A stretch of DNA of 64,000 nt from Friedmanniella luteola (GCF_900105065.1 NZ_LT629749.1:1054001-1118000), one strand, 5' to 3'; counted from the stretch's first letter, positions 9,406 to 14,255 are shown. Made by a program: numbers and translations. The notes: generated by a model not told the origin, from the sequence alone.

Positions 9406-10500
9406 ATGGGGGCCACCGAGGCGCTGGCAGCGCCGCCCGACCCGGACGGGGCGGGTGAGGAGTCCGGCGTCGCCGAGCTCCTCCCGCTGGTCCGGCGCAT
9501 CGTGCACGCCCGGGTCGCGGACCGGGCCGCGGCCGAGGACCTGGTCCAGGAGACCCTCGTCAAGGTCCTCGCCGCCTCCCACCGGGTCGAGCCCGGCATG
9601 CTCGAGCCCTACGCCATCGTCACCGCCCGCAACGTCGTCGCGTCGATGTGGAAGGAACGGGACCGGCACCGGCGCAACGTCCACCGGGTGGTGGACCTCG
9701 TGCCGGTGGAGGCACCCGACGCCGACCTGCTCCGCGAGGAGGAGCGCGGCGCCGTCGCCGCCGCCCTGGACCGGCTGAGCGAGCGCGAGCGGCGGACGCT
9801 GCTGGCCCACGAGGTGGCCGGCCAGGACACCCGCTCGCTGGGCACCGAGCTGGGGCTGTCCGCCGGGGCCGTCGCCGCCCAGCTCAACCGCAGCCGCGCC
9901 CGGCTGCGCGTGGAGTACCTGCTGGCGCTGCAGGACGAGGAGCCGCCCACCGGCCGCTGCCGCCCCGTGCTGTTCGCGCTCTCGCTGGGGGACCGGCGCC
10001 GGCAGCGCGAGCTCGACGCCGCCCGGCACCTGCTGGAGTGCGACTTCTGCGCCGACCTGAGCCAGCCGCTGCTGGAGCGCTCCCCGGAGACCGACACCGT
10101 GGTCACCGTGCGGATCGAGGGCGACCCCGACATCGTGGCCGCCCGCCGGGTGGCGCGCGAGCTGGCGGGGCGGATCGGCTTCTCCCGGACCGACCTGACG
10201 CTGGTGGCGACCGCGGTCTCCGAGATCGCCCGCAACATCGTGCGCTTCGCCGGTCGCGGCGAGGTGGTCGTGGAGCTCCTCGAGCAGCCGCGGCCGGGGA
10301 TCCGGGTGGTCGCGCGCGACGCGGGTCCGGGGATCGCGGACGTCGAGCGCGCGCTGGCCGACGGCTACAGCACCTACCACGGGCTCGGCCTGGGGCTGCC
10401 CGGCGCCCGACGGCTGATGGACGAGTTCGCGGTCGTCTCGGAGGTCGACCGCGGCACGACGGTGACCATGACCAAGTGGCAGAGGGAAGGGACGGCATGA
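9406..10500 (+). CDS. ECF-like sigma factor fused to zinc-type motif and RsbT-like kinase
   Basis: A 364-residue three-part regulator. Residues 25-90 look like sigma region 2 (EDLVQETLVKVL, then ARNVVASMWKERDRHRR). Residues 118-172 look like region 4, with a helix-turn-helix (LSERERRTLLAHEV, LGTELGLSAGAVAAQLNRSR). Residues 208-215 hold HLLECDFC, an HX3CX2C motif like that of zinc anti-sigma factors. Residues 230-362 are a GHKL ATPase very close to RsbT, with N-box SEIARNIVRFA (N277), DAGPGI (305-310) and GLGLGLPGARRLMDEF. It heads an operon with rsbR, rsbS and an RsbU_N gene, each overlapping the next by 4 bases. I infer that the kinase domain phosphorylates the stressosome and ties the sigma domain to it. 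Such a fusion is not one I know as described. Confidence 0.88.
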   Translation: MGATEALAAPPDPDGAGEESGVAELLPLVRRIVHARVADRAAAEDLVQETLVKVLAASHRVEPGMLEPYAIVTARNVVASMWKERDRHRRNVHRVVDLVPVEAPDADLLREEERGAVAAALDRLSERERRTLLAHEVAGQDTRSLGTELGLSAGAVAAQLNRSRARLRVEYLLALQDEEPPTGRCRPVLFALSLGDRRRQRELDAARHLLECDFCADLSQPLLERSPETDTVVTVRIEGDPDIVAARRVARELAGRIGFSRTDLTLVATAVSEIARNIVRFAGRGEVVVELLEQPRPGIRVVARDAGPGIADVERALADGYSTYHGLGLGLPGARRLMDEFAVVSEVDRGTTVTMTKWQREGTA

Positions 10501-11393
10501 GCGAGGGCGACGGCGGGACGACGGAGTTCGCACGGGTCCACCACGAGGACGAGGACGTGGAGCAGCTGCTGCCGCAGCTGGTCGCGCACCTGCGCGAGCA
10601 CCGCAGCCGGCTCCGCGAGGAGTGGGCCGGCCGGATCCAGGACTCGCACCTGCTGCGGTCGATGACGCCGCAGGAGGTGGGCGCCGAGACCACCTCGGTC
10701 TACGACAACTACGTCGAGGTGCTCGAGACCGGCAGCGTGGAGGCCCTCCAGCACTACGCGCGCGACCTGTCCGAGCGGATCATCCCCCGCGGCGTCGAGA
10801 CCCACGAGGTGGTCGGCATCGTCCTGCTGCTGCGCGACGTGCTGGCCCGCTCGCTGTTCGAGAAGTACCAGCGCGACTTCGACCTGCTCAACCGGGTGCT
10901 CGACGCCTACGAGCCCGCCGCCAACCGGATCGCCAACACGGTGGCGGTCAGCTTCGTCGACGAGCGCGAGCGGGTCATCCGCCAGCAGCAGGACTCCATC
11001 CGGGAGCTGTCGACGCCGGTGCTGCCCGTGCGGGAGCGGCTGCTGATCCTGCCGATCATCGGCGTGCTCGACACCGAGCGCGCCCGCCAGCTCACCGAGC
11101 AGCTGCTGCGCGGCATCCGCACCCACCGGGCGAAGGTCGTGGTCATCGACATCACCGGCGCCCCGGACGTCGACGAGGCGGTGGCCAACCACCTGGTCCG
11201 CACCGTCGACGCCTCCCGGCTGATGGGCGCGAGCGTCATCATCACCGGGCTGTCCCCGGAGATCGCGCAGACGCTGGTCACCATCGGGGTCGACCTGAGC
11301 AAGATGAACACCATCGGCGACCTGCAGGGTGGTCTGGAGGAGGCCGAGCGGCTGCTCGGCTTCACGGTCATCCGCGAGGACGGCTCACCGTGA
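10497..11393 (+). CDS. rsbR: RsbR-type stressosome co-antagonist (STAS)
   Basis: A 298-residue protein with an all-helical N-terminal sensor (about 20-165; RsbRD/globin-like in predicted helices) and a C-terminal STAS domain (about 180-290). The STAS core reads VVVIDITGAPDVDEAV, then GLSPEIAQTLVTIGVDL, close to Bacillus RsbR. Threonines T220 and T259 are kept. The residue after the VD pair, the position that carries the phosphoacceptor in RsbS, is Glu (E227). RsbR forms the mixed stressosome shell with RsbS. The ATG overlaps the sigma-kinase stop by 4 bases. The N-terminus would receive the stress signal; its ligand is unknown. Confidence 0.85.
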   Translation: MSEGDGGTTEFARVHHEDEDVEQLLPQLVAHLREHRSRLREEWAGRIQDSHLLRSMTPQEVGAETTSVYDNYVEVLETGSVEALQHYARDLSERIIPRGVETHEVVGIVLLLRDVLARSLFEKYQRDFDLLNRVLDAYEPAANRIANTVAVSFVDERERVIRQQQDSIRELSTPVLPVRERLLILPIIGVLDTERARQLTEQLLRGIRTHRAKVVVIDITGAPDVDEAVANHLVRTVDASRLMGASVIITGLSPEIAQTLVTIGVDLSKMNTIGDLQGGLEEAERLLGFTVIREDGSP

Positions 11394-11794
11394 CCGACGA
11401 CGGCCCGGCGCTGGTCTCGATCCTGCGGCAGGGGTCGCAGCTGATCGCGTCCATCCACACGGCCCTGGACGACACCCAGATGCTGCGGTTCCAGCAGGAC
11501 CTCGTCCACCAGATCGGTGAGCACCGGGCGCGCGGGGTCGTCATCGACGTCGCGGCCCTCGACGTGCTGGACTCGTTCGGGTCGCGGACGCTGCGCGACA
11601 TCGCGGAGATGGCCCGGCTGCGGGGTGCGGCGACCGTGATCGTCGGGATCCAGCCCGAGGTGGCCTTCGCCATGGTGTCCCTGGGCATGGACACGGGCAG
11701 CGTGCACACCGCGCTCGATCTCGAGGAGGGCCTGGCCTACCTCGGCGGGCAGCCGGCGACCGCCGCCCGCGCCCGCTCGGCCCAGCGGCGATGA
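11390..11794 (+). CDS. rsbS: RsbS-type stressosome antagonist (single STAS domain)
   Basis: A 134-residue single STAS protein. Residues 49-68 read GVVIDVAALDVLDSFGSRTL. The serine of DSF (S62) aligns with the RsbS phosphoserine of Bacillus (from memory of that family). The end ALDLEEGLAYL matches the RsbS C-terminus. In known stressosomes, unphosphorylated RsbS traps RsbT and is released by phosphorylation. Here RsbT is part of a sigma factor, so S62 phosphorylation may free the sigma factor. The GTG overlaps rsbR by 4 bases. Confidence 0.87.
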   Translation: MTDDGPALVSILRQGSQLIASIHTALDDTQMLRFQQDLVHQIGEHRARGVVIDVAALDVLDSFGSRTLRDIAEMARLRGAATVIVGIQPEVAFAMVSLGMDTGSVHTALDLEEGLAYLGGQPATAARARSAQRR

Positions 11795-12081
11795 GCAGCC
11801 TCGCGGACCTCCGCCGCGACTACCGCGCCGCCTTCCTGCGCTACCTGCCCCGCCGGGCCGAGGCGCCGCTGCGGGCGGGTTACGAGATCGGCCGCGCCGC
11901 CGTCGTCGACGGCCTGAGCATCCTCGACCTCGCCCAGGTGCACCACGAGGTGCTGCTCGAGGTGATCACGACCGTCCGCCGCGACGAGCTGGGCGACGTC
12001 GCGGCCGCCGCCTCGGAGTTCTTCGTCGAGGTGCTGGCCACCTACGAGATGGCCCAGCGCAGCCTGCCGCCCCGTCGCTGA
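11791..12081 (+). CDS. stand-alone RsbU N-terminal-like RsbT-binding domain
   Basis: A 96-residue helical protein that aligns over its whole length with the N-terminal RsbT-docking domain of Bacillus RsbU. Matching blocks are RDYRAAFLRYLPRR, LSILDLAQVHHEVL and FFVEVLATYEMAQ. The protein stops where RsbU would enter its PP2C phosphatase, and no phosphatase reading frame follows. It could be a free docking partner that competes with the stressosome for the kinase domain of the sigma fusion, or a phosphatase-less switch. It is last in the operon and overlaps rsbS by 4 bases. Confidence 0.78.
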   Translation: MSSLADLRRDYRAAFLRYLPRRAEAPLRAGYEIGRAAVVDGLSILDLAQVHHEVLLEVITTVRRDELGDVAAAASEFFVEVLATYEMAQRSLPPRR

Positions 12082-12469
12082 CCGGGCCGCGGCCGCCCGC
12101 GCCCGCGGACGGACGCCTCCACCCCCGCGTCATGACGCGGCCCGGCCGGGCCCGCCCCGGGCGGCCCAGCCGTCACCGTCCGTCCCTGTCGTCGGCCGTG
12201 CCGGGCCCCCCGGGCGCCGGTCCGCGTCATGACCGGGGAGCCGAGGCGTCTCAGGGGTGACGGCTCCACCGACGCGTGGCGTGTCCGGGGCGTGGGGAGC
12301 GTTCCCGTCGACCGGCGTGGCGGTGGAGCCGTCGAACTGCGGCTGCGGGGCGCCGCACCCCCTGGGGCGTTCCGCAGCCGCAGCCACCGGGAGCGGGCAG
12401 GTGCGCGACCCGGAAGCCGACGAGAGAGGCCGACGATGTCCTGGTTCCCCGACGCGGGCGGGCCGTGCG
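12082..12469. other. 388-base intergenic stretch with palindromes
   Basis: No gene is convincing here. It holds a perfect 16-base palindrome CCGCGTCATGACGCGG at 12125-12140 and a second copy of its first 12 bases at 12222-12233, the latter inside a CCGGTC/GACCGG inverted repeat. It also holds a 12-bp perfect stem, CTGCGGCTGCGG at 12337-12348 with CCGCAGCCGCAG at 12372-12383. A 13-codon ORF follows at 12436-12477. Confidence 0.7.
12337..12383 (+). terminator. strong hairpin, terminator or attenuator
   Basis: A perfect 12-bp stem with a 23-base GC-rich loop that can pair further (CGCC with GGCG). There is no T tract. It may end the stressosome operon transcript or regulate the small gene downstream. 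Confidence 0.45.
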
Positions 12470-12477
12470 GTGCGTGA
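12436..12477 (+). CDS. possible 13-residue leader peptide
   Basis: ATG with an upstream GAGAGAGG ribosome binding site encodes MSWFPDAGGPCGA, and its stop overlaps the GTG start of the next gene region (12470). The overlap would allow translational coupling. The adjacent Trp-Phe pair is notable so close to an aromatic pathway gene, but one pair is weak evidence for attenuation. Confidence 0.25.
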   Translation: MSWFPDAGGPCGA

Positions 12478-12826: not shown

Positions 12827-12857
12827 CAATCGGGCGGTCCCGGCGGCCCCCGGCGTC

Positions 12858-12863
12858 TAGAGT
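12858..12863 (+). promoter_or_regulatory. -10 box, leaderless promoter of aroG
   Basis: TAGAGT ends 6 bases before the ATG at 12870, so transcription should begin at or next to the start codon. No Shine-Dalgarno is present. This also argues for ATG 12870 over the in-frame GTG at 12864. Confidence 0.55.
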
Positions 12864-12869
12864 GTGCGG

Positions 12870-14255
12870 ATGCTCGATGCGTCCCCGGTCCCCTCGCTGG
12901 ACGAGCTGCATGCTCTGAACCCGCTCCAGCAGCCGACCTATGCCGACCAGGGCGCCCTCGCTGACGTGATCGGCAAGCTGCGCACCCTGCCGCCGCTGGT
13001 CTTCGCCGGCGAGTGCGACGAGCTGCGGGCCAAGATGGCCAGCGTCGCCGCGGGGGAGGCCTTCCTGCTGCAGGGCGGTGACTGCGCCGAGACGTTCGAG
13101 GGCGTGACGGCCGACAACATCCAGAACAAGCTGCGCACGCTGCTGTCGATGGCCGTCGTGCTCACCTACGCGGCGCAGGTGCCGATCGTCAAGGTCGGCC
13201 GGATGGCCGGTCAGTACGCCAAGCCCCGCAGCTCCGGCTCCGAGACCCGCGACGGCGTCACGCTGCCGGCCTACCGGGGCGACGCGGTCAACGGTTTCGC
13301 CTTCAGCCCCGCGTCGCGCGAGCCCGACCCGCAGCGGCTGCTCGGCGTCTACAACGCCTCGTCGGCGACGCTCAACCTGACCCGGGCCTTCGTGACCGGC
13401 GGCTTCGCCCACCTGCGGCGGGTGCACAGCTGGAACGCGAACTTCGTCCTCAGCTCGGGCGCCGGTGTCCGCTACCAGGACTTGGCCGACGAGATCGACC
13501 GGGCGCTGGCCTTCATGGTGGCCTGCGGGATCGACGACGACGCCTTCCGCACCGTCGACTTCTACTCCAGCCACGAGGCCCTGGTGATGGAGTACGAGCA
13601 CGCGCTGACCCGGATCGACTCCCGCACCCGGCAGCCCTACGGCACGTCCGGGCACTTCCTGTGGATCGGCGAGCGGACCCGGCAGCTGGACGGCGCGCAC
13701 GTCGAGCTGATGCGGCACATCCGCAACCCGCTGGGCGTGAAGCTGGGACCGACGACGACGGCCGACACCGCCCTGGAGCTCGCCGACCGGCTGGACCCGG
13801 ACCACGAGCCGGGCCGGATCACCTTCATCACCCGGATGGGGGCCGGCAAGGTCCGCGACATCCTGCCCGAGGTGGTGGCCAAGGTGACCGCCAGCGGCCG
13901 TCAGGTGGCCTGGGTCTGCGACCCGATGCACGGCAACACCTTCGAGGCCCGCAACGGCTACAAGACCCGCGCCTTCTCCGACGTGGTGGAGGAGCTCAAC
14001 GGCTTCTTCGACGTGCACGAGGAGCTCGGCACCTGGCCGGGCGGGGTGCACGTCGAGCTCACCGGCGACGACGTCACCGAGTGCGTCGGCGGCAGCGACG
14101 ACCTCGTCGAGGCCGACCTCGTGAACCGCTACGAGACGCTCTGCGACCCGCGGCTCAACCGCAACCAGTCGCTGGAGCTGGCCTTCCTGGTGGCCGAGCG
14201 GCTCACCAGCGGCCGGATCCGCCGAGCCAAGGCCGTCCAGGCCGCCGCGGTCTGA
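12870..14255 (+). CDS. aroG: class II 3-deoxy-D-arabino-heptulosonate-7-phosphate synthase
   Basis: A 461-residue plant-type (class II) DAHP synthase, which condenses phosphoenolpyruvate and erythrose 4-phosphate in the first step of the shikimate pathway. Family blocks are clear: FAGECDELRAKM, LQGGDCAETFEG with the metal-binding cysteine, VGRMAGQYAKPRS, and near the C-terminus WVCDPMHGNT and HVELTGDDVTECVGG. Its length equals that of the M. tuberculosis enzyme Rv2178c, which also lies in this neighbourhood. The leaderless promoter supports the chosen start. Confidence 0.96.
   Translation: MLDASPVPSLDELHALNPLQQPTYADQGALADVIGKLRTLPPLVFAGECDELRAKMASVAAGEAFLLQGGDCAETFEGVTADNIQNKLRTLLSMAVVLTYAAQVPIVKVGRMAGQYAKPRSSGSETRDGVTLPAYRGDAVNGFAFSPASREPDPQRLLGVYNASSATLNLTRAFVTGGFAHLRRVHSWNANFVLSSGAGVRYQDLADEIDRALAFMVACGIDDDAFRTVDFYSSHEALVMEYEHALTRIDSRTRQPYGTSGHFLWIGERTRQLDGAHVELMRHIRNPLGVKLGPTTTADTALELADRLDPDHEPGRITFITRMGAGKVRDILPEVVAKVTASGRQVAWVCDPMHGNTFEARNGYKTRAFSDVVEELNGFFDVHEELGTWPGGVHVELTGDDVTECVGGSDDLVEADLVNRYETLCDPRLNRNQSLELAFLVAERLTSGRIRRAKAVQAAAV

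Follow-up and report, generated by a model that had tools for sequence, protein, structure and literature searches.

Organization of the operon and its start

Positions 9406 to 12081 of the window, a stretch of 64,000 nucleotides from Friedmanniella luteola (NZ_LT629749.1:1054001-1118000), hold four open reading frames on the plus strand, with short ATGA-type overlaps between neighbours (Table 1). A sequence-only reading of this DNA had proposed four overlapping genes for a sigma-ZAS-RsbT fusion, RsbR, RsbS and RsbU_N, and the ORF coordinates, together with Pfam and profile searches of the PDB, bear this out. Given overlaps of only a few bases, the arrangement resembles a translationally coupled operon.

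Table 1. Features of the fusion operon and of the DNA behind it, with positions counted from the first nucleotide of the window
Feature	Position	Strand	Remarks
-10 element TAGTCT (TANNNT), 6 nt ahead of start codon	9394..9399	+	kept in 17/17 loci
Fusion protein, ECF sigma - zinc-type module - RsbT, 364 aa	9406..10500	+	
Sigma-70 region 2, residues 23-87	9472..9666	+	Pfam PF04542 Sigma70_r2, E 7.2e-12
Sigma-70 region 4, residues 116-167	9751..9906	+	Pfam PF08281 Sigma70_r4_2, E 2.2e-7
ZAS-like helical module, residues 185-223, C185 / H208xxxC212xxC215	9958..10074	+	predicted zinc site
RsbT kinase domain, residues 232-358	10099..10479	+	HATPase_c_2 and alignment
RsbR: globin-like N-terminal domain, signalling helix, STAS; T193 first phosphosite, Glu227 second	10497..11393	+	
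RsbS: single STAS domain, invariant Ser62 in DSF motif	11390..11794	+	
RsbU_N: RsbT-binding domain of RsbU alone, no phosphatase; invariant E24	11791..12081	+	
ECF-type promoter motif CCGCGTCATG-N14-GCGTC, directed back into operon 3' end	12112..12140	-	putative
ECF-type promoter motif CCGCGTCATG-N14-GCGTCTCAGG, directed downstream	12222..12256	+	putative; conserved in related genome G413
Presumed target transcript: SnoaL-like gene start, body deleted, then unassigned ORF of about 118 aa	12436..12826	+	

A TANNNT sequence lies 5 to 9 nt 5' of the start codon in all 17 loci compared, against 0.5% of the RTG triplets in the same loci, and in most of the 17 it is accompanied by GCGTA. The start codon at 9406 is supported by this element, which suggests that the operon mRNA is leaderless and made from a housekeeping-type promoter. 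The exact start-site pattern CGTAGTNTT-N6-ATG had no match in the genome, even at the operon itself, since the spacing in the window differs, and this search is uninformative.

Domains of the fusion protein

The sigma part of the fusion consists of regions 2 and 4 only, as in an ECF sigma factor, and the homologue alignment shows the DLVQE stretch of region 2 conserved, with D45 to E49 invariant. Residues 25-172, which had been taken for sigma domains, were recognized as regions 2 and 4 by Pfam and in the AlphaFold2 model alike. The module that follows folds in the model into four helices (185-194, 197-202, 205-211 and 213-223), and its C185, H208, C212 and C215 are invariant in 19 homologues. 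The earlier assignment of this module to the ZAS type stands as to its invariant Cys/His pattern, which ends in H-x3-C-x2-C, and has to be amended in that Cys replaces the first His; it is a ZAS-like module with predicted zinc binding.

The C-terminal domain matches HATPase_c_2 over residues 244-357 (Pfam, E 9e-14) and retains the ATP-binding residues E273, N277, D305, G307, G309, G328 and G330. It shares 49-64% identity with stand-alone RsbT genes of R-S-T-U operons. R19 and R23 of RsbT contact RsbU, and E24 of RsbU contacts RsbT (PMC12143880); the equivalents of the two arginines, R247 and R251, are invariant among the fusion homologues (the B. subtilis RsbT sequence served as outgroup and for residue numbering only). 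In the profile search of the PDB the fusion matched SpoIIAB and ECF SigE, and the solved folds closest to its kinase domain are SpoIIAB and RsbW. The AlphaFold2 model has the sigma helices, the four-helix module and a GHKL fold at a mean pLDDT of 85.5, with an orientation of the domains that is unsure (pTM 0.43), and it is therefore silent on any masking of the sigma domains by RsbT or by the zinc module.

RsbR, RsbS and RsbU_N

The RsbR protein has a STAS domain (Pfam, 8e-15) and a weak RsbRD_N match just under the cut-off, aligns with Listeria stressosome RsbR over 258 positions (7.5e-38 in the PDB profile search), and in a Foldseek comparison its model, similar to the Listeria protein and in its N-terminal half to a globin, matched 7b0u best. 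Its His103, a candidate haem ligand, is Gln in two homologues, hence we make no claim of haem binding. RsbS is a STAS protein (Pfam, E 2e-12) that matches stressosome RsbS at 8.5e-32, and its phospho-serine is kept in every fusion locus. The fourth gene passes the Pfam cut-off for RsbU_N (E 4e-12) and matches the N-terminus of B. subtilis RsbU at 4e-5; its residue E24, the equivalent of the RsbT contact, is invariant among homologues. This gene looks like a truncated remnant of RsbU retained as a binding partner of RsbT.

In Listeria, phosphorylation of RsbS at S56 has been tied to the release of RsbT, while of the RsbR sites T175 serves to prime the particle and T209 to tune it (PMC12154155). 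At the second of these RsbR sites none of 19 fusion-type RsbR proteins has Ser or Thr (14 have Glu), and ordinary actinobacterial RsbR usually has Ser, though the site varies there too; the first site is occupied by T, S, R, G, Q or A among the fusion-type proteins. The pair of Thr phosphosites expected of a stressosome RsbR is thus absent here, and is a variable rather than a strictly defining feature. Because the second RsbR site is lost and the first is variable while the RsbS serine is invariant, the RsbS site seems to carry most of the control in the fusion system.

Distribution and origin of the fusion

The fusion architecture was found in about 23 genomes, from Geodermatophilaceae, Intrasporangiaceae, Propionibacteriaceae, Nocardioidaceae and one lineage outside the class, a recurrence that rules out chance or an assembly artefact. 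It is nevertheless rare: full fusions in a sample of 396 genomes of the phylum are those of the window's genome, G085, G269 and G205; 4 of 395 genomes of the class carry it, as do 5 of the 20 genomes searched in the window's genus. Among named genomes, 16 full relatives were found, namely Blastococcus, Geodermatophilus (three), Modestobacter, Terrabacter, Phycicoccus (two), Tetrasphaera, Humibacillus and Knoellia, as well as metagenome-assembled genomes (MAGs) of Propionibacteriaceae (including L035) and Nocardioidaceae. The search for the same four-gene order in other Actinobacteria, which the sequence-only reading had called for, was successful: within the reach of their contigs all 16 named homologues have the order fusion-RsbR-RsbS-RsbU_N, and so do G085, G269 and G205. 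The contig of L040 stops before gene 4; that of L049 ends inside gene 4, and a frameshift divides the L049 fusion in two.

The same search recovered ordinary actinobacterial stressosome loci, in which the series RsbR-RsbS-RsbT leads into a longer gene that includes an RsbU_N domain; in the fusion loci, by contrast, RsbT comes first and RsbU_N is a gene by itself. In a tree, a branch with support 94/92 separates the fused RsbT domains from 19 unfused RsbT proteins and that of B. subtilis. The phosphatase half of RsbU would have been dropped and its docking half kept, the order of events being a reconstruction. No description of an RsbT-sigma fusion was found in the literature searched, and it may be listed in the 2021 ECF re-classification.

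The sigma-zinc core also occurs without RsbT in the homologues L009-L015, which have a membrane segment and an outer domain instead, and L051 groups with these in the sigma-core tree, the rooting of which on distant ECFs is unreliable (outgroup branch 2.9). This pattern indicates that the partner of the core is either RsbT or a membrane anchor. The outer domain of L009-L015 is conserved, with a pattern like EGFWxG, and the group looks like an undescribed or an ECF52/53-like one.

Absence of the sigmaB-type output cascade

It had been remarked that no RsbU phosphatase, RsbV, RsbW or PP2C lies nearby, and searches for SpoIIE, STAS and HATPase domains extend this, for RsbU, RsbV and RsbW, to the whole genome of the window. 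A Pfam search for the SpoIIE-type phosphatase (PF07228), in which the B. subtilis positive control gave a match, found none in this genome, which therefore has neither an RsbU nor an RsbX of the SpoIIE family. No RsbV candidate was found in the genome either, the only other STAS matches being two SulP transporters, and no RsbW candidate, the three next-best HATPase matches being sensor histidine kinases; it is on these three that the exclusion of RsbW rests, the weaker matches all lying in ORFs of 410 aa or more. With SpoIIE phosphatase, RsbV and RsbW candidates all lacking, the standard output cascade is missing from the window's genome, and a hidden RsbU/V/W set elsewhere in it was searched for and not found. 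The genome has one SigB/F-like sigma factor (L120, G000:C1:876076-876732), which scores under the family cut-off and for which no RsbW candidate was found. Among the five fusion-bearing genomes of the genus, three have no SpoIIE match (two of these are incomplete MAGs) and two have SpoIIE proteins.

An ECF-type promoter motif beside the operon

The DNA flanking many fusion loci contains a two-part motif, CCGCGTCATG-N14-GCGTC, the second half of which includes CGTC, the usual -10 of ECF promoters. In 334 kb of fusion loci the pair CGTCAYG and CGTC occurs 26 times at a spacing of 15, and the counts for the remaining spacings in the range 5 to 30 are 0 to 9; spacing 15 gives 4 matches and no peak in the 942 kb of control loci, and unfused stressosome loci and membrane-type loci likewise lack the peak. 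Several of the 26 matches fall on the DASRLMGASVI codons of the RsbR gene and were left out of account, although one such match, in L035, slipped through the filter into the weight matrix; the 1.2 kb flanks alone give 14 matches at spacing 15 and 0 or 1 at others. The strict form CGTCATG-N15-CGTC (13 fixed bases) has two copies in the 4.7 Mb genome, at 12112-12140 on the minus strand and at 12222-12256 on the plus strand of the window, both no more than 170 bp from the operon end. In nine fusion-bearing genomes it has seven copies, every one within 2.5 kb of the operon, compared with four copies in 16 genomes without the fusion.

Several loci, L038, L039, L116 and L117 among them, have no flanking site that scores above 9 in the weight matrix, and a genome-wide search found the strict motif absent from the two f48 genomes. 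Weight-matrix scores are circular, since the motif was drawn partly from the same loci; the fixed spacing and the absence from the rest of each genome are not. GCGTCATG by itself is not in excess in the window (4 occurrences against 2.5 in shuffles), and only the fixed-spacing pair is significant. A permuted 7-mer that scored 16 in the flank control appears to be the motif itself, displaced by one base (GCGTCAT). From the association of motif and operon we infer that the sigma factor of the fusion may read CGTCATG-N15-CGTC.

Autoregulation through the ECF-type motif was considered and rejected: the operon start has no CGTCATG-like -35, and the conserved element there is TANNNT, so that there is no sign of positive autoregulation. 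In about six loci (the window, L133, L134, L044, L047 and L115) a minus-strand copy of the motif, close to where RsbU_N ends, points back into the operon 3' end, and could give rise to an antisense RNA that feeds back on the operon.

The genes behind or near the motif vary by lineage and include PRC-barrel/DUF2382, mechanosensitive-channel, alpha-amylase-family, esterase-like and, in G413, SnoaL-like genes, a mix that, going by gene names, suggests osmotic or envelope stress. The SnoaL-like gene is intact in the sister genome G413; in the window (12436-12470) the loss of about 0.8 kb from its interior has left 13 codons, and its promoter is conserved between the two. The operon adjoins a gene for a small secreted protein of no known family in six or seven loci; such proteins, of about 180 aa with the pattern CxIxxLxLGPLxLDLLGL...GNLLGNLLCAVAGLL, stand beside the operon in L044, L045, L047, L048, L050, L115 and L134, and gave no significant match to a Pfam family. 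The next gene in the window, at 12864, is by its sequence a class II DAHP synthase; the element GTCTAGAGTG at 12850-12870, shared with G413, is read as a separate, housekeeping-type promoter of this gene.

Discussion

We consider it probable that the stressosome at this locus, and likewise in some soil actinobacteria, sequesters a sigma factor directly, and that phosphorylation of RsbS frees this factor for a small local regulon. The route could be as follows: (i) RsbR and RsbS would build the megadalton particle typical of a stressosome, and the RsbT domain of the fusion would bind RsbS, so that the attached ECF sigma factor is parked on it; (ii) on a signal to RsbR, RsbT would phosphorylate Ser62 of RsbS and the fusion would leave the particle; (iii) free RsbU_N, the truncated RsbU, would then probably take up the RsbT domain and prevent its return; and (iv) the freed sigma part, perhaps additionally restrained by its own zinc module as a second lock, would join RNA polymerase and fire the CGTCATG-N15-CGTC promoters beside the operon. 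With somewhat less assurance, and still on the favourable side, we hold to the scheme in full, in which a single phosphorylation of RsbS replaces the RsbT-RsbU-RsbV-RsbW-sigma relay, the lone RsbU_N is the acceptor, the regulon is confined to the neighbourhood, and an antisense promoter possibly supplies feedback. The one-step short-cut that had been read from the sequence gains further support from the promoter motif tied to the operon, with release of the sigma factor as its conjectural step.

Three other explanations can be weighed against direct storage and release of the sigma factor. The logic may be inverted, the GHKL domain acting in cis as an anti-sigma domain that is pulled off the sigma part, and so activates it, by docking to unphosphorylated STAS proteins; the solved folds nearest to the kinase domain are those of SpoIIAB and RsbW, which inhibit sigma factors directly, in trans. 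We regard this as unlikely, since by sequence the domain is a true RsbT, with the identity to stand-alone RsbT given above, and its partners are the stressosome proteins RsbR and RsbS, not RsbV.

The two remaining explanations concern the other parts of the chain. That the zinc module is the main redox or metal switch, as in ZAS-fused ECFs, with RsbT only modulating it or carrying a separate signal, would agree with its four invariant Cys/His residues and with the relatives in other families that keep the sigma-zinc core with a membrane segment and without RsbT; yet the kinase and stressosome residues are just as strictly conserved, and RsbR, RsbS and RsbU_N accompany the fusion wherever contigs allow, which makes this reading improbable in our estimate. 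Least credible of all, and very improbable, is that the sigma domains are a decoy without a role in transcription: although such mimics exist, as in PhyR, whose sigma-like domain acts as a decoy, regions 2 and 4 of the fusion score as ordinary ECF domains, its DLVQE is invariant, and a promoter motif of ECF type goes with the operon.

If direct storage and release is true, no shorter route from a stressosome to RNA polymerase is known. Stressosome output is hard to follow because of its phosphatase and anti-sigma steps; with both gone, release from the particle could be read from one reporter gene. The locus would also exemplify the collapse of a multi-step partner switch into one protein, the RsbU phosphatase being lost and its docking domain kept. 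ECF sigma factors, for the most part paired with anti-sigma factors in the membrane, would be connected with a sensory particle of the cytoplasm, and the predicted pair of sigma factor and promoter would be compact, its sites being very few in each genome.

The system shares with the RsbR-RsbS-RsbT stressosome of Bacillus and Listeria the globin-like N-terminus and STAS domain of RsbR, the phospho-serine of RsbS and the kinase residues of RsbT. It differs in that RsbT carries a sigma factor and is encoded first, RsbU is cut to its RsbT-binding domain, the second RsbR phosphosite is lost, and no RsbV, RsbW or SpoIIE protein was found in the genome, whereas in Bacillus several further relay proteins stand between stressosome and sigma factor. 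Gene 4 belongs to the domain family of the N-terminal domain of B. subtilis RsbU and has the invariant contact residue E24, but lacks the phosphatase domain and has little or none of the linker helix. Among ECF sigma factors, ECF48, ECF52 and ECF53 (PMC8999054) likewise combine region 2, region 4 and a zinc module in one chain, and share with the L009-L015 homologues a membrane segment after that module; in the fusion, by contrast, RsbT follows the zinc module directly, with no membrane segment, the chain ends in the kinase domain, and control would be exerted by a cytoplasmic stressosome rather than by proteolysis. ECF41, with its promoter TGTCACA-N16-CGTC, its narrow local regulon and its SnoaL-like C-terminal extension (PMC3426412), resembles the fusion in having a regulatory C-terminal extension and, as predicted for the fusion, a local regulon and a promoter of similar build, but the extension of the fusion is a zinc module with RsbT rather than a SnoaL-like domain, and the -35 element and the spacing differ.
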